DNA of 42,565 nucleotides, from IMG/VR virus record IMGVR_UViG_3300017781_000025, positions 1-42,565 of that record; one strand, given 5' to 3'. The notes under the pieces are model-generated. The model ran no database searches and had not been told where the DNA came from. It saw nothing but the letters and a program-made list of their open reading frames with translations. Each line of letters starts with the position of its first letter. Positions within the stretch are counted from its first letter, which is position 1. Made by a program: the position numbers and the translations under genes. The DNA is from a virus. Shown one piece after another: positions 5,541 to 13,827 of this stretch.

Positions 5541-6092
5541 TTATACAGCTACACAAATATAAGGAAAACAAGTAACACCACCTACTTCAAAACAATTAGC
5601 TGTAGTGCCTGACGTGTGAATATTAGTCCCGTGATCAGGACTATAGTATGGAATATTCGTACTTGTTACTTCTGTAAGCGTCAGTGGGCCACAAGGCGTG
5701 TACTGGTTTGAGGGGCAAATAGGATTAGGTCCAAAACCATGGAATCCACTTGCACCTGTGCCAGAAACATGAACATGTGACAACATCTGTCCAGCCTGAA
5801 AACTGCCTGTCTGCTCACCCGAAGGAAGAATACCAGAAATAGATACTCTATCTGCCCTATCTGGATCAGCGCCCCGACCTAAATCAACACCTCGTAATTG
5901 ACAATACGATATATCGGGAATAACCATTTCGGTTGCAGTAGAACCGAAAGAGCCTATAGCCCAGTATACAGATAAGTTAGGGAAGGACGTTCGGCTTATT
6001 GTCTGATTATTCATCAGCACATAAGTTGCTCCTGTAGCAGAAACAAAGGATGTACCTTTATTAACAGCAGAATAGGTGATGTGACCAATCAT
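5541..6092 (-). CDS. Tail collar-domain fibre protein, last of cluster
   Basis: This 183-residue protein looks like one phage tail-collar module: FVSATGATYVLMNNQTISRT, SFPNLSVYW, a VIPDISYCQLRGVDLGRG segment, then a His-rich stretch (MLSHVHVSG and PDHGTNIHTSG). In T4 gp12-like fibres the HxH motif binds metal. It probably forms a receptor-contacting tip or short tail fibre. It follows the two-module collar gene with only two bases between them. Its C-terminus is Cys-containing (CFEVGGVTCFPYICVAV), which is unusual for this family. Confidence 0.7.
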   Translation of the reverse strand: MIGHITYSAVNKGTSFVSATGATYVLMNNQTISRTSFPNLSVYWAIGSFGSTATEMVIPDISYCQLRGVDLGRGADPDRADRVSISGILPSGEQTGSFQAGQMLSHVHVSGTGASGFHGFGPNPICPSNQYTPCGPLTLTEVTSTNIPYYSPDHGTNIHTSGTTANCFEVGGVTCFPYICVAV

Positions 6093-6094
6093 AG

Positions 6095-7159
6095 TTAAAT
6101 AGCGAAAGTGTCAATAACAACACAGTTCAATGCTGTTATATTAGGTGGTCTATTTTCAACTGCACCACCAATATTTGATGCTAATGAAGATGGAGGGCCA
6201 TAAGCTTCTCCGAAAGGATCGATAGGTGCGCCTCCGTCAAGAGTTTGTTGTTGTACGATGTTGATAAATAAAGTTTGGTTAATTCTATGCCTATGTCTAT
6301 GAAAATCAGACTCAAAATATCCACTACCCGTGATTGCTCCAGAAGGCTGTATTCGTAGTCCTCCGTCAGATCCTTGTATACCACGGATGAAGACGCCTCG
6401 ATAATCTGGAATATTAAACGTTGTAGATCCGTTTCCTACACCGTAATCAGTTCCAATTTTTCCAAATAAGTTAGAGTATGTAGTTCGACTGATCGGCTGA
6501 CCACTAGCAATGACAACGTTGTCAGGAAGAAGAGTCGCAATAAGTGTTGGTGAACAAGGTAACATAATCTGAATAATGGAGCCCACTGGGTAATCCATCT
6601 CAGTATTAGTTATACAACAAACAGTTTCTTTAAAACGTCCGTTGTTAAGAGATCCGTCATAGCTACTCCACCAACCAGAAGCCTGAGTCTCGTTAGCTCG
6701 ATAGTCAAGTCTTCGCGGTGTATTAGATTGAGGTTTAAAAAATTGGTGAGTATGCTGAGGCAAAGTGCCAGAAGAATAAGTCCCTGAGACAACATTAATA
6801 TCTGGTTTTAAATAACCCAGATCATCACTTACATCAGGAACCCCAAAATTAGCAGCTCCATCTCCAATACCAAAATTTGTACCAATTACTTGGAAAAGAG
6901 GTTCAGCAGTTGTTCTTGAAACGTTAGCTCCATGAGCGGGTATAAATTCAGTACCACTACCAGTTACTACACCACTAGAAATAGCATAAAAGTATTCTCC
7001 TGTATTTAAACCAATTTCTCCAACAGGAAAAACAGGCCACTCCCCCCGTAATTTAAAACGATATTGTTCTTCTCTGGACCAAGAACCTTTACCCGTACTG
7101 TCTGTAGGAAAAGGGGTATTACCGGTGGCACCGCCAATTTTTCTGTTACCGCCTGCCAT
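6095..7159 (-). CDS. Tail fibre protein with two collar domains
   Basis: This 354-residue protein has two consecutive collar-like modules. The first spans about residues 38-150 (FPVGEIGLNTGEYFY, SRTTAEPLFQVIG, FGIGDGAANFGVPDVSDD, LPQHTHQF). The second spans about 190-310 (YPVGSIIQIMLP, SRTTYSNLFGKIGTDYG, FNIPDYRGVFIRG, FHRHRHR). Both carry a His cluster like the metal site of gp12-type fibres. It probably works with the downstream single-collar protein at the host-contacting tail tip. The internal duplication is the main oddity. Confidence 0.75.
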   Translation of the reverse strand: MAGGNRKIGGATGNTPFPTDSTGKGSWSREEQYRFKLRGEWPVFPVGEIGLNTGEYFYAISSGVVTGSGTEFIPAHGANVSRTTAEPLFQVIGTNFGIGDGAANFGVPDVSDDLGYLKPDINVVSGTYSSGTLPQHTHQFFKPQSNTPRRLDYRANETQASGWWSSYDGSLNNGRFKETVCCITNTEMDYPVGSIIQIMLPCSPTLIATLLPDNVVIASGQPISRTTYSNLFGKIGTDYGVGNGSTTFNIPDYRGVFIRGIQGSDGGLRIQPSGAITGSGYFESDFHRHRHRINQTLFINIVQQQTLDGGAPIDPFGEAYGPPSSLASNIGGAVENRPPNITALNCVVIDTFAI

Positions 7160-7161
7160 AT

Positions 7162-7947
7162 TTAAGCTCCGGGTGCTTTATCTAGACGATTCTGCTCTAT
7201 CGTAGCAGCTACTCTATCGCTATAAACACTAGATTCTTCAACATAGTAGTAACCGGAAATATTAAAATCAGCATCAGAAATGCAGTAATTTTCTGGGATA
7301 AAATAATTTCTATTAACTAAATCTTTTGGAAGAGACCCCGAACCTTTTGTCCAATCAGCTGGGATTGAAGGTAAAAGTTCAGCTTCAACACCAGAAGGAA
7401 CAAAAATTAAACCATAATCTTCATAATCTGTTCGAGATTGTGGCTCGATGTTTATAAAATTTTCTGCTCGTTCTTGAGCAAATGACAAACTAACTAACGA
7501 CTCAGGACGTAAGGGTGTTTCACCCCAAGAGATTTTACCTCCTTCAGCAGCCTTATCTGCTAATAACTCACGAATTTTACCCTGATACAACCACAGCTCT
7601 CTTTTGGAGGAAGGAGAAAGTTTTCCATCCGTGACGACAGTAGAAAGTCGAAGTTCTGAACTTAAATACTGAACAACCTCACTATTTTCAAAATCAGGGT
7701 CAACGGTAGAACTAACTGTAGTTACAACCCAGTTTGAATTAACACTATCCCAAGTTACTATCTGACCTACAGAAGAAAATGGAGGTTGATCGATAGGTCC
7801 AATGTACCCAGCTGCTGTTATATCACTTAATAAACATGATTTACTACGCCTAGCGTCACCGTCAGGTAAGAAAAAAATTTCTGGAAGATAAGCTGGGTCA
7901 CTGCCTTCTTTAGTAAATAAAGCAGAAGTCCAATTTTTAATTTCCAT
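7162..7947 (-). CDS. Tail/fibre-region structural protein
   Basis: I recognise no family in this 261-residue protein. It begins MEIKNWTSALFTKEGSDPAY and has the segment VGQIVTWDSVNSNWVV, which resembles the short 'WD/WxV' modules of cyanophage fibres. It is acidic, has no membrane segment, and sits between collar fibres and a small beta-rich protein, two bases from each neighbour. A role in the tail fibre or baseplate is inferred from context alone. Confidence 0.5.
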   Translation of the reverse strand: MEIKNWTSALFTKEGSDPAYLPEIFFLPDGDARRSKSCLLSDITAAGYIGPIDQPPFSSVGQIVTWDSVNSNWVVTTVSSTVDPDFENSEVVQYLSSELRLSTVVTDGKLSPSSKRELWLYQGKIRELLADKAAEGGKISWGETPLRPESLVSLSFAQERAENFINIEPQSRTDYEDYGLIFVPSGVEAELLPSIPADWTKGSGSLPKDLVNRNYFIPENYCISDADFNISGYYYVEESSVYSDRVAATIEQNRLDKAPGA

Positions 7948-8324: not shown

Positions 8325-9833
8325 TTAAGAGAGCGCCATTATTAATCCGATCATCTGTTCTTGGTCTACTGGAGGATTATTTATGATCAAAGTCAAAGCA
8401 GCGTTACCAGAAGCAAGTGCTTGGTTACCGTCGAAGATTAAAGCGTTACCAGAAGCTTGGGCTTCTACTCCAGAAACAATAGCTCTATCGGCTTGAGTTA
8501 CTGATAAAACACCACTAGTCGTTGCTGTAGCAGACGTAGCAATTGCTGCCACACCACTGACAATTGCAGTGTTAGCAACGGATATGGAAGTAAGTGATTC
8601 TGAGATACTTGCATCACCAGATGCTTTGGCCTTGAAAGAAAGGGAAAGCGCTGCGTTACCTGAAGCCTCGGCTACAAGAGCAACTGTTATAGAAGAGTTA
8701 CCAGAAGCAGTAATCTCAGGAATAAGAGCTAAGGCTGCATTTCCGGAAGCCAAAGCAACTGCAGCAGGAGCATGAACGGCATCACCGGAAGCAATAGCCG
8801 TCGGTGCAATAGCTTCACCAGCTAACCCCGAAGCAATGGCTGTGTTTGAGGTTTCAACTGCTTCGTCGTGCAGAAAAATAGCAAAGATTGATTTGACAAC
8901 TGCATCAGAAGCTCTATCTAAAGCCTCGACACTGTTAGCGAGAGCAAAATTACCTGAGGAAGTAGCTTGATTTGCTTGAACAACTGCTGCATTTCCCGAA
9001 GCCAGTGCCTCAGTAGCTGCAGTAGATGCGGCACTACCAGACGCAAACGCAATTGAAGAGTCGGCTAAAGCTGCATTACCAGAAGCTAAAGCAATTGATG
9101 AATCAATAATCGCTGCAGTTCCAGAAGCAATTGCTACCGCACTTACTTGAACAGACGCAGCACCAGAAGCTATAGCAGACGCTGAATTTACAACCGCACT
9201 TGATCCAGAAGCGATTGCAGATTGATTATTAAATAAAGCAGCGTTGCCAGAAGCCTGAGCTGAACTTGCTCTGAACTCTGCTGCAAATCCAGAAGCAGCC
9301 GCAATATTTGCTTTGACTAATCCTTGTTGTCCAGAAGATGTAGCGACTGCAGTGTCAACAAGAGCATCTATACCAGATGCAAGTGCTTCAGTGTTAAGAG
9401 ATAAACTTGCATCACCAGACGCTTGAGCTTCAAAACCAGAAGCTAAAGCATTGTTTGCGATACTTTGAGCACTTAAAGAAGTAGCAATAGAAGCGTTACC
9501 TGAAGCCTGAGCTTCGGCAGCTTCGATAACTGCTCCTTCTCCAGAAGCTAAGGCAGTAACTGCAAGAGAAACAGCGGCACTACCGGAAGCAATTGCAGTG
9601 AGACCTAAAGTTAAGTCAACACCATCAAGTCCTAGTTTTCCGTCAGCTGTGTATAAAAGTCCCGAAGGATTTACAGGTAAATCAGTTTGAACAAAATTAG
9701 CTAGACCGAGCGTAAAAATACGACCACCGAGGCCGCTACCTGCGATTAAGTCACCAGTAATTGGGATGACGTCATCGTCATGGCTTTCGGCAATAAAACC
9801 GCCGGAATAAACGAGACCTCTACGCAGAGTCAT
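8325..9833 (-). CDS. 29-repeat fibre protein, degenerate copy
   Basis: This 502-residue protein has three parts: a 79-residue head domain, exactly 29 units of 14 residues (80-485), and a 17-residue end ending QEQMIGLIMALS. The unit consensus is roughly A-x-A-S-G-N-A-A-L followed by five variable residues, but many units here have drifted. The head domain shares a PSGLLYTADGKLGLDGVDL-like segment with the next gene, which is clearly a paralogue. The 14-residue period would fit a left-handed beta-roll like the YadA head or two coiled-coil heptads; I cannot decide. It is probably a long tail fibre shaft. Confidence 0.75.
   Translation of the reverse strand: MTLRRGLVYSGGFIAESHDDDVIPITGDLIAGSGLGGRIFTLGLANFVQTDLPVNPSGLLYTADGKLGLDGVDLTLGLTAIASGSAAVSLAVTALASGEGAVIEAAEAQASGNASIATSLSAQSIANNALASGFEAQASGDASLSLNTEALASGIDALVDTAVATSSGQQGLVKANIAAASGFAAEFRASSAQASGNAALFNNQSAIASGSSAVVNSASAIASGAASVQVSAVAIASGTAAIIDSSIALASGNAALADSSIAFASGSAASTAATEALASGNAAVVQANQATSSGNFALANSVEALDRASDAVVKSIFAIFLHDEAVETSNTAIASGLAGEAIAPTAIASGDAVHAPAAVALASGNAALALIPEITASGNSSITVALVAEASGNAALSLSFKAKASGDASISESLTSISVANTAIVSGVAAIATSATATTSGVLSVTQADRAIVSGVEAQASGNALIFDGNQALASGNAALTLIINNPPVDQEQMIGLIMALS
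8379..9596 (-). repeat. 29 tandem 42-base coding repeats (degenerate)
   Basis: The repeat tract spans 1,218 bases, exactly 29 units of 42 bases, inside the fibre gene. The motif A-x-A-S-G recurs at each unit start. In units 4, 25, 26 and 27 the ASG/VSG triplet is displaced by seven residues, exposing a 7-residue sub-period. DNA identity between units is low, so the repeats are old and kept at protein level. Confidence 0.85.
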
Positions 9834-9834
9834 T

Positions 9835-11346
9835 TTACGAAAGCGCGATAATTAAGCCGATTGCAGCGCCCTGACTTAAGCCTGGGTTCGCCGCGTAAGC
9901 TGCGAGAGCGGCATTGCCAGAAGCTTGAGCTACAGGCACGATTACCAAACCAGCATTACCAGAAGCTAGTGCAGTACTAGAAACTGATAATGCTGCGTTA
10001 CCTGAAGCTAGAGAAGTATTAGCTACCACAAGGGCAGCGTTGCCAGAAGCTTGAGCAATAGCTGAATCGCTGATTGCGGCGTTACCAGATGCAGCAGCGG
10101 CAGCAGCAAGAACTAAACCAGCGTTACCGGAAGCTAAAGCAACGATCCCGTCTGAAATTGCTGCATTGCCGGAAGCTTGAGCTGCAAGTGCAAGAGCGAT
10201 ACCTGCGTTACCGGAAGCAGCAGCTCCTGCTAGATCTTCGAGAGCAGCATTACCAGAAGCTTGTGCTTGTACTGCTACAGCCAGACCAGCATTACCAGAG
10301 GCAAGTGCGTTTAAAGAAACACTGATCGACGCGTTACCAGATACAGCAGCGGATTCAGCTACAGCTACAGCTGCATTACCCGACGCAAGTGCGACGTTTG
10401 CCAGGTTTAGAGAAGCCTGACCAGAAGCTAAAGCTGTGTTTGAAAGAACGACTGCTGCATTGCCTGAAGCAAGAGCGACAGCGGAGTCGACGAGGGCAGC
10501 ATTTCCTGAAGCAAGAGCAACAGCAGAATCAGCTAAGCCCGCATTACCAGAGGCAAGAGCTGAATTTGCTAGGGAAACGGCAGCAATACCAGAAGATAAA
10601 GCTTGCTCAGAATCTGTTAATGCGGCATTACCAGAAGCTAAAGCTGAGACAGAAACTGTCAGCGATGCGTTGCCAGAGACAACGGCTGCCACAGCATCTG
10701 CAAGACCTGCGTTTCCAGAGGCCAACGCTGTACTAGCGTCTTCCAGGGCTGCATTACCTGAGGCAAGCGCACGAACGTTGGTGATTAATGCTGCGTTACC
10801 TGAAGCAAGTGCTTCTTCAGATAAAAGCAGTGCCGCGTTACCAGAAGCAAGAGAAGTAGCAGCGTCTGCTAAGGCAGCATTTCCTGAAGCAAGTGCGTAT
10901 TCGCCAAGCTGAAGAGAAGAATTACCAGAACTTAGTGCTGTCTCAGCAACTTCTAAAGCTGCATTTCCAGAGGCAATCGCAATAGCAGCCTCTGTTAGAC
11001 CAGCATTACCAGAAGATAAAGCTACGGCTGCATTAGATAAAGCTGCATTTCCGGAGGCTAATGCATTCGTAGAATCTAATAAAGCAGCATTGCCTGAGGC
11101 CAATGCGTCTGTAGAACGTTTAAGCGCAACACCATCGACGGAAATCTCGTTTCCTACATAAATAAGACCACTTGGTTGAGCTGTAAAAGCTACATCTAAA
11201 CGAATAGTGGAATCTGTATTACCGCCACCTACTAAACCACTGCCTGCGGTAAGAAGACCGCCAGAAGCAGAGGTGATAATACTGTCACCAAAAGGTAGCT
11301 CGGCGAGAGCACCGCTAACTAAAACTACCGGCCTGCGGACTACCAT
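9835..11346 (-). CDS. 29-repeat fibre protein, regular copy
   Basis: This 503-residue protein has an 80-residue head domain, 29 perfect-register units of 14 residues (81-486) and a 17-residue tail ending GAAIGLIIALS. The dominant unit is ALASGNAAL plus five variable residues. The head contains GGLLTAGSGLVGGGNTDSTI and PSGLIYVGNEISVDGVALK, the latter shared with the neighbouring paralogue. A GGAGGG-type ribosome site lies ahead of the ATG. The regular 14-residue period suggests a fibrous trimer, as a beta-roll or coiled coil. It probably forms a tail-fibre shaft; the paralogue separated by one base may pair with it or replace it. Confidence 0.8.
   Translation of the reverse strand: MVVRRPVVLVSGALAELPFGDSIITSASGGLLTAGSGLVGGGNTDSTIRLDVAFTAQPSGLIYVGNEISVDGVALKRSTDALASGNAALLDSTNALASGNAALSNAAVALSSGNAGLTEAAIAIASGNAALEVAETALSSGNSSLQLGEYALASGNAALADAATSLASGNAALLLSEEALASGNAALITNVRALASGNAALEDASTALASGNAGLADAVAAVVSGNASLTVSVSALASGNAALTDSEQALSSGIAAVSLANSALASGNAGLADSAVALASGNAALVDSAVALASGNAAVVLSNTALASGQASLNLANVALASGNAAVAVAESAAVSGNASISVSLNALASGNAGLAVAVQAQASGNAALEDLAGAAASGNAGIALALAAQASGNAAISDGIVALASGNAGLVLAAAAAASGNAAISDSAIAQASGNAALVVANTSLASGNAALSVSSTALASGNAGLVIVPVAQASGNAALAAYAANPGLSQGAAIGLIIALS
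9889..11106 (-). repeat. 29 tandem 42-base coding repeats (regular)
   Basis: The tract is 1,218 bases long, again exactly 29 x 42 bases. Almost every unit keeps S-G-N at positions 4-6 and a Leu/Ile/Val at position 9. Units differ by synonymous and variable-position changes, so recent DNA-level expansion is unlikely. The antisense strand is open over long stretches only because of this periodicity. Confidence 0.9.
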
Positions 11347-11357
11347 GATTTAACTCT

Positions 11358-11873
11358 TTACCCTCCAGTATAAAGAAGAACTGGTGGAGAAATTTCCACA
11401 CTTAGTTGTGTAGATGTAATAGCTAGCCCAACACTTGTCGCAGCTTGATATGCATTAGATCCGGAACCTGTGACAGTCCCCGAAGTTGTGGTGAACCTTA
11501 CAACTTCTCCTTCAAATTTAGATAAATAATAATATTCTCCGGGAATAAGAGCTGTGTCTGCAGTGATATTTGCTGAAGTTAAGCCAATCACTCCATCTAG
11601 ATTTACCACAACGTCTGAACCTTGGGTTGCCGCTTCTCCGGCAAAACCAATTGGAGAAAACTGATAAGCGTTTACACCACTAAGAGCGATAGCAGGTACT
11701 GCAAAAGCACCACTAGCGGAAACCATATCTCCCGCAATTAAGTTAGCGCCAGCTGTCAAAGTAGCCTCAGGAGCAGGGTTTGTGACAACTCCCTGACCAT
11801 TAGCTAGGTATACAGTTGTACCGTCAGCTTGATAACTTGTGTAATTGCGGTTGAATATCGATCTGTTCGGCAC
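11358..11873 (-). CDS. Beta-barrel structural protein, paralogue A
   Basis: This 171-residue protein has the sequence order LTAGANLIAGDMVSASG, VVVNLDGVIGLTS, LIPGEYYYLSKFEGEVV and VGLAITSTQLSVEI. The gene upstream (11913-12308) shows the same order, so the two are paralogues. The 'GD-V ... G ... GxYYLS' pattern resembles small beta-barrel virion proteins such as DUF2190-like decoration domains. As it lies in the fibre cluster, it may be a fibre-associated or receptor-binding piece rather than a capsid decoration. No membrane segment is present. Confidence 0.45.
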   Translation of the reverse strand: MPNRSIFNRNYTSYQADGTTVYLANGQGVVTNPAPEATLTAGANLIAGDMVSASGAFAVPAIALSGVNAYQFSPIGFAGEAATQGSDVVVNLDGVIGLTSANITADTALIPGEYYYLSKFEGEVVRFTTTSGTVTGSGSNAYQAATSVGLAITSTQLSVEISPPVLLYTGG

Positions 11874-11912: not shown

Positions 11913-12308
11913 TCAAAGGTATCCACTAACAACGTATCGAGGTTGTTGAGGACAAATTCTAAGTGAACCAGTACTAATTGCTGTTCCTAGTTCTACTAAA
12001 TAAGCTCCAGAAGCTCCCAACTGATCGAAACCAGCTACATAGGTTGGGTAATCAACGACTTTTCCCCCGCTTGCACTCACAAAATATCTAGTACCAGGAA
12101 TCAAACCCGAATAAACAACTGCTTGTGCGTCGGTAACCACACGGCAAAGTGTCCCAGTACTCACATCGTCGACAGAAACACCAATCGTGTTTGCTTCATC
12201 AAGGTCTCCTGAGGATCTAGCTGTACGGATATAGCCAGAAGTGCTCATATCTACAGCTACTGCATCACCTAGAGCGATGTTTTCACCAGCACGAAAAGAT
12301 AAGAGCAC
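11913..12308 (-). CDS. Beta-barrel structural protein, paralogue B
   Basis: This 131-residue protein starts at GTG; a stop lies just upstream in frame. It has FRAGENIALGDAVAVDMSTS, TIGVSVDDVSTGTLCRVV, SGLIPGTRYFVSASGGKVV and VELGTAISTGSLRI, in the same order as its paralogue next door. The pattern matches small beta-barrel 'GDxV ... GLxPGxxYxxS' proteins. It is probably a virion component in the fibre region; the exact role is unknown. Confidence 0.45.
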   Translation of the reverse strand: MLLSFRAGENIALGDAVAVDMSTSGYIRTARSSGDLDEANTIGVSVDDVSTGTLCRVVTDAQAVVYSGLIPGTRYFVSASGGKVVDYPTYVAGFDQLGASGAYLVELGTAISTGSLRICPQQPRYVVSGYL

Positions 12309-12477: not shown

Positions 12478-13827
12478 TTAGCTCAGACCCATGATTAGAC
12501 CAATAACGTCACCTTGAGACATACCTGGAGAATTGCCGCTCGCAATGACGTTATCCCAAGCAGAGCCATCCCAAACGTGAATGACATTGTTACGGGAATC
12601 AGTCCACTGAGCGCCTGTTACTGCATTAACAGGAGGCACATCTCCGTAAGAAGGAGTACGGGAAGGAGCTGATTCGTACCAACCGCTTGTAGCAGCGTCG
12701 TAAACGAACAGTGAACCCATGAGATTGTTGAACCAAATGGTTCCATCTCTTGGAGGAGCGTTGAGTCCGCCTGTGCCAGAAGGAGGAACTTCGCTCTTAA
12801 TTGCTAAAGCTTCAGCGTTAGCGATATACCAATCAGGTTTGGTAACGTTATTTCCAGACGCATAAACGAAGAGGCGACCTTCGTTAGTGTCGAACCAAAG
12901 AGAACCGCCGACGAAGTTACTTCCAGGGTCACCCGAAATCGTAACCACAGCGGCACCTGCTTCAGCAGTGCTGTTGTACTTAATAAAGGATCCCGAGTAA
13001 CCGATTGTTACGTTGGTTCCTGGTAGAGATCCAACGTCGATCTGTTGATAATCGCCGCTTGTTCTTACAGCAGAACCAGAACCAGCAACTAACAGACTTT
13101 CGAGAGAGACAAACGATCCGGAGTAACTAGCACCAATACCGGTGTCCCCAATAATTCCGATATCAACAACCTGGAAGTCTCCACTCTGGCTGACACTTGT
13201 TCCAGATCCAGCAACAAGAAGTTGTTGAGAAGTTCCAGAAATTACTCCAACCCGAGCACCGTTGTAGGAGAAATCGACTGATCCTTGACCAATAAGGTCA
13301 GTGCTGACAACAGCAGTTGAACCACTAGCCGTAACAGTAATTCCGTCACCACCTACAAGTCCACTAACAACAGCAACAGCACCTTCGTTAGTGCCAGAAA
13401 CTTGAATTAGTTTTCCGTCGTACTCAACATCGTTATTTCCTAATCCTTGAATATTTACGTCAAAGAGAGTTCCTTGTCCACTAGGAACACCAAGTACACC
13501 AGACCCCGGAAAAGACTGGGTAATGAGACTTGCAATGATGCTGTATAAACCACTCGTCGTAATACTGATCCCAGAACCAGGGACTAGTAATCCTCCAGTA
13601 GCTTCGATACCACTAGCAGTGGAGTTTAAATCTTCGAGTGCCCTTACTACACCTTCGAAGTTAGGTGGGTATCCATAAGGACATCTGGTGTAGCTAGTAG
13701 TTCCCACGCCGCTGATGGTTTCGATGAGGTTATCGACTACCGACACAATTCCGAAGAAGTTGTGCGGTGCACGTGCCCTGGGTAAAACGCCGTGAAGTGG
13801 ACACGCAGGGCTATTACGTTCAGGCAT
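12478..13827 (-). CDS. Fibre protein with WD-like modules
   Basis: This 449-residue protein is rich in Ser-Gly. After an N-terminal domain with Cys and Pro (SPACPLHGVLPRARAPHNFF), it has repeated beta units with the form AGSGxxVxxSGDxQxxDIG (about residues 200-290). Three short modules follow: GSLWFDTNEGRLFVYASG, GTIWFNNLMGSLFVYDAATS and GAQWTDSRNNVIHVWDGSAW. These are typical of cyanophage fibre or structural proteins. It ends SQGDVIGLIMGLS, the same tail as the two 29-repeat proteins. A GGAGG ribosome site precedes the ATG. It is probably the first gene of the fibre operon. Confidence 0.7.
   Translation of the reverse strand: MPERNSPACPLHGVLPRARAPHNFFGIVSVVDNLIETISGVGTTSYTRCPYGYPPNFEGVVRALEDLNSTASGIEATGGLLVPGSGISITTSGLYSIIASLITQSFPGSGVLGVPSGQGTLFDVNIQGLGNNDVEYDGKLIQVSGTNEGAVAVVSGLVGGDGITVTASGSTAVVSTDLIGQGSVDFSYNGARVGVISGTSQQLLVAGSGTSVSQSGDFQVVDIGIIGDTGIGASYSGSFVSLESLLVAGSGSAVRTSGDYQQIDVGSLPGTNVTIGYSGSFIKYNSTAEAGAAVVTISGDPGSNFVGGSLWFDTNEGRLFVYASGNNVTKPDWYIANAEALAIKSEVPPSGTGGLNAPPRDGTIWFNNLMGSLFVYDAATSGWYESAPSRTPSYGDVPPVNAVTGAQWTDSRNNVIHVWDGSAWDNVIASGNSPGMSQGDVIGLIMGLS

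Follow-up and report, generated by a model that had tools for sequence, protein, structure and literature searches.

Joint variation of repeat number in two neighboring fiber-like genes of a virus suggests, tentatively, a single length-matched fiber

The window analyzed here, a virus record of 42,565 bases (IMG/VR record IMGVR_UViG_3300017781_000025), carries two neighboring genes, designated A and B, each of which encodes an N-terminal head, a long shaft of 14-residue repeat units, and a short C-terminal tail. The two shafts contain the same number of units, and this equality holds in all 19 records in which both genes are complete and unbroken, of 93 records with this type of head (window included); 15 of these pairs have 29/29 units and 4 have 8/8. 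Such equal rod length of partners across lineages is what a length-matched hetero-oligomeric rod should display. We tentatively read A and B as two chains of one hetero-oligomeric fiber with length-matched shafts, a reading to which we give a little less than an even chance.

A and B lie head to tail on the minus strand, with 1 base between them. Each shaft comprises 406 residues (29 × 14), and the tails have 21 residues in the register used here (xxxxALASGNAALx). The initial annotation had described 29 units of 14 residues in each of two proteins of 502 and 503 residues, one array being regular and the other drifted, and we obtained the same count and lengths; its heads of 79 to 80 residues and tails of 17 residues delimit the same array in a register that lies about 4 residues later than ours. 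B is the regular member. Its self-identity is 0.45 to 0.48 at lags of 14, 28, 42, and 56 residues versus 0.20 to 0.23 at lags of 7, 21, 35, and 49, and 29 of its 29 units fit the unit profile. In A, self-identity is highest at lag 14 (0.32) and 26 of 29 units fit, with the caveat for both proteins that the profile was derived from the A and B shafts and the fit is partly by construction. The SG motif in A shifts by 7 residues and then shifts back, so that the half-unit slips cancel and the sum is still 29; the units with the poorest fit, averaged over nine A shafts, are 4, 17, 18, and 27. The two shafts of the window are 41% identical. At the DNA level, three short imperfect arrays (at most 3 copies, 59 to 81% matches) were detected by Tandem Repeats Finder, all within B. 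A search for repeated blocks of units found adjoining units somewhat alike (lag 1 in A, z = 3.3; lag 2 in B, z = 2.3) and nothing longer that was clear. Plus-strand open reading frames (ORFs) at positions 10074 to 10325, 10389 to 10736, and 10436 to 10912 run antisense to the B shaft; we regard them as a by-product of repetitive codons, with no evidence for genes.

Relatives were collected in six scans of the viral contigs of IMG/VR with A, B, and their alignments, followed by a profile search for heads; contigs are named here by the IMG/VR number that follows IMGVR_UViG. Some scans kept the best 80 matches, so that the records with this head type number at least 93 and weaker relatives are missing. 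Three more contigs (L203, L234, and L237) came from a seventh scan, for which the A alignment was deeper, none adding an A/B pair, and a genome scan for relatives (82 stretches) gave one weak relative only, in a metagenome-assembled genome of Planctomycetia. Units were counted as the span from the first to the last fitting unit. Records were excluded from the comparison when (i) a contig end cuts the pair (3300017721_001740 and 3300013131_000079), (ii) frameshifts are present (L009, which is 3300046170_000464, in both genes; L006, which is 3300037847_008284, in A), or (iii) the second member is missing or incomplete (3300037847_007584, 3300030395_002052, 3300007541_001675, 3300025093_000354, 3300013131_000150, and 3300017721_001480). 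The frameshifts in L009 and L006 reflect either sequencing error or decay. Every complete member among the excluded records has a count of 29 or 8.

The window is almost identical to 3300017762_000008, so that these two records make up one distinct pair; when pairs are required to share less than 95% identity in A, 14 are distinct (10 at 29/29 and 4 at 8/8). In A proteins with 29 units (A29; the other classes are named likewise), 23 to 26 of the 29 units fit the profile. The 8-unit pairs have A/B lengths of 211/211 amino acids, or 209/207 in L060. Counting units in related phages had been proposed in the initial annotation, which named freely varying unit numbers in each gene as the contrary outcome; A and B do not vary in this way. 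It had further envisaged selection on length, as for a ruler or for partners lying side by side. The coupling of the counts agrees with this, whereas a fixed ruler of 29 units is not supported, as the pair exists both at 29 and at 8. In a related group with three paralogues, all 13 records whose three copies are uncut have counts of 3/3/3, in proteins of 245 to 646 amino acids; 3300021958/3300021960 and 3300010354/3300010370 look like near-duplicates within this set, and 3300030708_003705 (3/3, one copy cut) stands outside the tally. This group is weaker evidence for matching because single-copy relatives, too, often have 3 units. Another record, 3300044631_003061, has two copies at 3/3. Single-copy relatives outside the A/B family have 1 to 10 units (automatic count; some are cut, and two have no count), and, among genomes whose second repeat protein has a different head type, several are unequal and one is 5/5 (L104) as judged by eye.

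Unit number changes jointly in the two genes on the head tree (94 rows and 79 columns; the program output warns of few columns). A branch with 99/97 support separates the 19 A heads, whether of 29-unit or 8-unit phages, from the B heads and the rest. Judged from this branch, the A/B duplication is older than the split between 29-unit and 8-unit phages, so that both genes changed by 21 units, and inheritance from one 29-unit ancestor is not enough to account for the equal counts. A29 rows form one group (100/93), and B29 rows form one group with weaker support (77/92). The 8/8 pair of L060 falls beside the 29-unit group in A (92/44) and within it in B (92/86). A tree of neighboring genes did not settle the direction of the change; in several outgroup rows, the same ORF had been picked for both neighbors, and this tree is therefore not clean. 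As a candidate site of the 21 units, the best of nine splits falls after unit 5 in both genes (44.2 versus a 99% null of 37.1 in A; 28.3 versus 27.1 in B, where split 6 gives 28.2); it is weak and was not used.

Both genes are under purifying selection, with ratios of nonsynonymous to synonymous substitution rates (dN/dS) of 0.04 to 0.06 in B shafts and 0.07 to 0.08 in A shafts (three close pairs, dS of 0.6 to 1.1). Nine A29 shafts align gap-free at pairwise identities down to 45%, as do eight B29 shafts at identities down to 59%. Stasis within the 29-unit group would not in itself be proof of selection, since DNA repeats as diverged as these should not slip easily. Per-unit conservation in A and B correlates at lag 0 (r = 0.40, permutation p = 0.017), with another lag reaching 0.35; for the per-unit score, the correlation is 0.22 (p = 0.135).

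Phage fiber shafts are usually thought of as homotrimers. Here, stopping just short of even odds, we favor two separately encoded chains that form one heteromeric fiber, its length being set jointly (8/8 or 29/29), with the related group doing the same with three genes (3/3/3). In each chain, the head would be N-terminal and the tail short and C-terminal, and the long shaft between them would probably be an alpha-helical coiled coil. Each 14-residue unit would contribute two heptads, giving 58 heptads; if helical, the shaft would measure about 60 nm, with a rise of 0.15 nm for each residue. The chains would run parallel in one bundle, the heads at one end and the tails at the other; with heads and tails in register, both shafts would need the same number of units, and a change of fiber length between 8 and 29 units would require both genes to be altered by the same amount. 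We infer the coiled-coil fold, the co-assembly, the stoichiometry, and the place on the virion. If the reading is right, a unit number that moves together across lineages points to selection for shafts that match in length or register, and A/B would offer a natural system for testing partner matching by whole units.

Several observations weigh against one joint fiber. The structure predictions cover single chains, and index-by-index similarity of the two shafts, a possible trace of copying or pairing, is absent (identity of 0.330 at lag 0 versus 0.320, standard deviation 0.010; rank 6 of 29). Three of the four A8 proteins have a fit in just 4 of 8 units (that of L060 has 7 of 8), and for these three the count of 8 relies on the span and on the overall protein length; the A row of L060 was flagged as long and of odd makeup. 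The joint change may be a single event, which makes the statistics thin. Two multicopy records, with two complete head-bearing proteins each, are unequal: 3/4 in 3300019784_000691 and 3/1 in 3300047282_000628. Finally, a tail motif is common to A, B, and, in 18 of 19 records, the protein of gene C (Table 1). It suggests, but no more than suggests, a contact of the three proteins at their C termini; against this, the C protein of L010 lacks the motif, which also ends three single-copy relatives.

The fold of the shaft bears on this reading. In nine A29 shafts, charged residues (D, E, K, and R) make up 0 to 4% at unit positions 2, 5, 6, 9, 12, and 13, and also 4% at positions 7 and 8. L, I, or V is found mostly at positions 6 and 13, A at 5 and 12, and S, A, or G at 2 and 9, and the charge-poor positions fit a heptad core with a at 6 and 13, d at 2 and 9, and g at 5 and 12. 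The periodicity of I, L, V, M, and F peaks at 103 degrees in A. In one group of distant relatives (such as L092), the motif is spaced by 7, 11, and 17 residues besides 14, as coiled-coil stutters would give. AlphaFold2 predictions were made for single chains. The best model of the drifted 8-unit A protein of L034 has one helix at residues 75 to 194, with block values of the predicted local distance difference test (pLDDT) of 77 to 90 over residues 81 to 190, plus a helix at 200 to 210; the tail of this short protein, the counterpart of the A tail, is a short helix in the model. The opposite picture emerges for B, whose best model is a beta-solenoid with pLDDT of 90 to 97 over most of the shaft. 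We gave the helix more weight than the beta-solenoid because of a reported bias. Of the two folds between which the initial annotation had hesitated, a YadA-type beta-roll or a coiled coil, we therefore lean toward the coiled coil, given the charge pattern, the spacings, and the L034 helix, and away from the YadA-type roll, for which the Pfam scan (E up to 1) found no family in A or B; the evidence is mixed. A/B may thereby serve as a test case for structure predictors, the regular member being modeled as a beta-solenoid and a drifted homolog of its partner as a helix.

It is accordingly worth asking how far the data could be met by a beta-roll or beta-solenoid shaft, as in YadA heads or ice-binding proteins, with A and B stacking or pairing as a beta fiber with equal turns. 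Besides the B model, this finds backing in hydropathy, which peaks at a beta-like 180 degrees in both proteins (37.4 versus 26.3 at 103 degrees in A; 117.4 versus 29.6 in B), in the periodicity of I, L, V, M, and F in B, where the peak at 154 degrees exceeds that at 103, in the conserved SGN, which could be a turn, and in a subthreshold Pfam match of A to LbR_Ice_bind (E = 0.051, 14.1 bits versus a cutoff of 30). The L034 model is itself modest (predicted template modeling score of 0.29; mean pLDDT of 69.6, the five means being 69.6, 65.6, 55.2, 45.4, and 44.0). Yet only one of five B models is good (mean pLDDT of 81.5, 53.7, 40.6, 33.9, and 30.5), its best fold match in the PDB has E = 0.013 and a TM of 0.27, fold searches with both models gave no match at E = 0.001, and neither the single helix predicted for L034 A, nor the 7-, 11-, and 17-residue spacings, nor the lack of a YadA family in Pfam favors a beta shaft, which we consider quite improbable.

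The main rival to one joint fiber is a pair of separate homo-oligomeric fibers of equal length, standing side by side or reaching the same plane, with selection acting on length and not on register. It explains the same counts, it keeps to the rule of homotrimeric fibers in phages, and the two shafts show no similarity index by index. However, one unit too many would lengthen a 60-nm shaft, if helical, by only about 2 nm, yet none of the 19 pairs is unequal, and the tail motif common to A and B would favor direct contact; we hold this arrangement to be unlikely, although less so than a beta shaft. The equal counts might also be a legacy of inheritance and recombination only: a gene was duplicated, slippage ceased as its DNA repeats diverged, and a single recombination resized both copies with no selection on matching. 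That just three short imperfect tandem arrays remain, in B, that the 9 A29 and 8 B29 shafts are free of indels, and that the change between 8 and 29 may be a single event all suit this account. It is nevertheless at odds with the head tree, on which A and B separate before the 29/8 change, so that both shafts had to change by 21 units, and A bears no trace of having copied B index by index, though such a trace could be erased. We put its probability as low as that of the beta shaft, and the hetero-oligomeric fiber remains the reading we prefer.

Table 1. Features of the fiber cluster and its neighbors in the window
Feature	Position	Strand	Description
354-amino-acid protein	6095..7159	(-)	Tail-collar domain; downstream of A, fast-diverging
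Gene A	8325..9833	(-)	502 amino acids: head, 29 drifted 14-residue units, C-terminal tail
Tail of A and stop	8325..8390	(-)	C-terminal end MIGLIMALS
Shaft of A	8391..9608	(-)	Residues 76-481, 29 x 14
Units 17-18 of A	8853..8936	(-)	Without SG; irregular here in 9/9 aligned A29 shafts
Head of A	9609..9833	(-)	Residues 1-75; on the head tree, A heads group apart
Gene B	9835..11346	(-)	503 amino acids: N-terminal head, 29 regular 14-residue units, C-terminal tail
Tail of B and stop	9835..9900	(-)	C-terminal end AIGLIIALS
Shaft of B	9901..11118	(-)	Residues 77-482, 29 x 14
Head of B	11119..11346	(-)	Residues 1-76; conserved AGSGLVGGGN...RLDV...PSGL...DGVA; head fold without confident prediction
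171-amino-acid neighbor	11358..11873	(-)	In all 14 relatives compared; weak likeness to phage cement protein (Pfam E 0.028, 15.2 bits vs cutoff 24)
131-amino-acid neighbor	11913..12308	(-)	Beside A/B in all 14 relatives compared
Gene C	12478..13827	(-)	449 amino acids, without long shaft; similar tail, VIGLIMGLS

Protein C varies from 302 to 466 amino acids in the 13 relatives with a complete copy. Among nine proteins scanned, the Pfam Collar domain (PF07484) occurs only in the 354-amino-acid neighbor, which is likely an adhesin; the scan found no Collar domain in A or B. In the close relatives L003, L004, L005, and L008, identity to the window is 73 to 75% for A, 83% for B, and 86 to 87% for C (three of the four), but 33 to 34% for the collar-domain protein. 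The fast collar-domain genes look like exchangeable adhesins, and A, B, and C look like a scaffold. At positions 5541 to 7947 of the window, downstream of A, the collar-like and adjoining proteins share 25 to 44% identity with the corresponding proteins of relatives, even of those relatives that reach 73 to 87% in A, B, and C, as expected for swapped adhesins. In L038, L108, L110, and other three-paralogue contigs, the C-terminal domain of a paralogue reads by eye like the cement-like 131- and 171-amino-acid neighbors, and an apparently optional insert of about 370 amino acids was noted by eye and from protein lengths. Near the fiber cluster, 2-oxoglutarate oxygenase-like genes and one S-adenosylmethionine decarboxylase-like gene were recognized by eye in L010 (6527 to 7150, 9977 to 10573, and 10580 to 11215) and L039 (2924 to 3292).

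The virus of the window is probably a cyanophage, because its portal-like structural protein (43% identity) and terminase (50%) are closest to those of Synechococcus phage S-EIVl (KJ410740), the closest isolate in the phage collection searched. Unlike the window, S-EIVl showed no A or B head at E = 0.1 in either genome stretch, where a gene spanning the record start would be covered in part, and neither A nor B matched anything in the collection as a whole at E = 1e-5. Searches of Pfam, PHROGs, and NCBIfam likewise assigned neither protein to a family above its cutoff: PHROGs gave no match to either, and NCBIfam gave one match of A, far below the cutoff. A sequence search of the PDB returned one weak match of the B profile (6xr2, dTor_3x57R, E = 0.0049) and none for A. 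A search of the full-text literature for heteromeric or repeat-matched phage fibers, outside of which most subscription journals lie, gave nothing on point as judged by titles and the opening of abstracts. One of the papers returned, on the T1 tail tip (PMC11945409), does contain the word heterotrimer.

Three known systems invite comparison. A and B resemble YadA-type beta-roll heads in that their units are about 14 residues long and contain much A, S, G, and N; they differ in matching no YadA family and in the helix predicted for a drifted homolog. With T4 fibritin, they share a possible long coiled-coil shaft, an end domain, and nearby fiber-like genes. However, fibritin is a homotrimer encoded by a single gene, whereas here two genes have equal unit counts, and Pfam, PHROGs, and the PDB gave no sequence relation. 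Type I and type II keratins and fibrillar collagens are unrelated proteins, and the co-assembly that would place A and B alongside them is our proposal, but they too have partner chains of matched rod length despite sequence divergence. Coiled-coil phage fibers and length-matched heteromeric rods are each known, and their combination, with a joint change of unit number, looks new.

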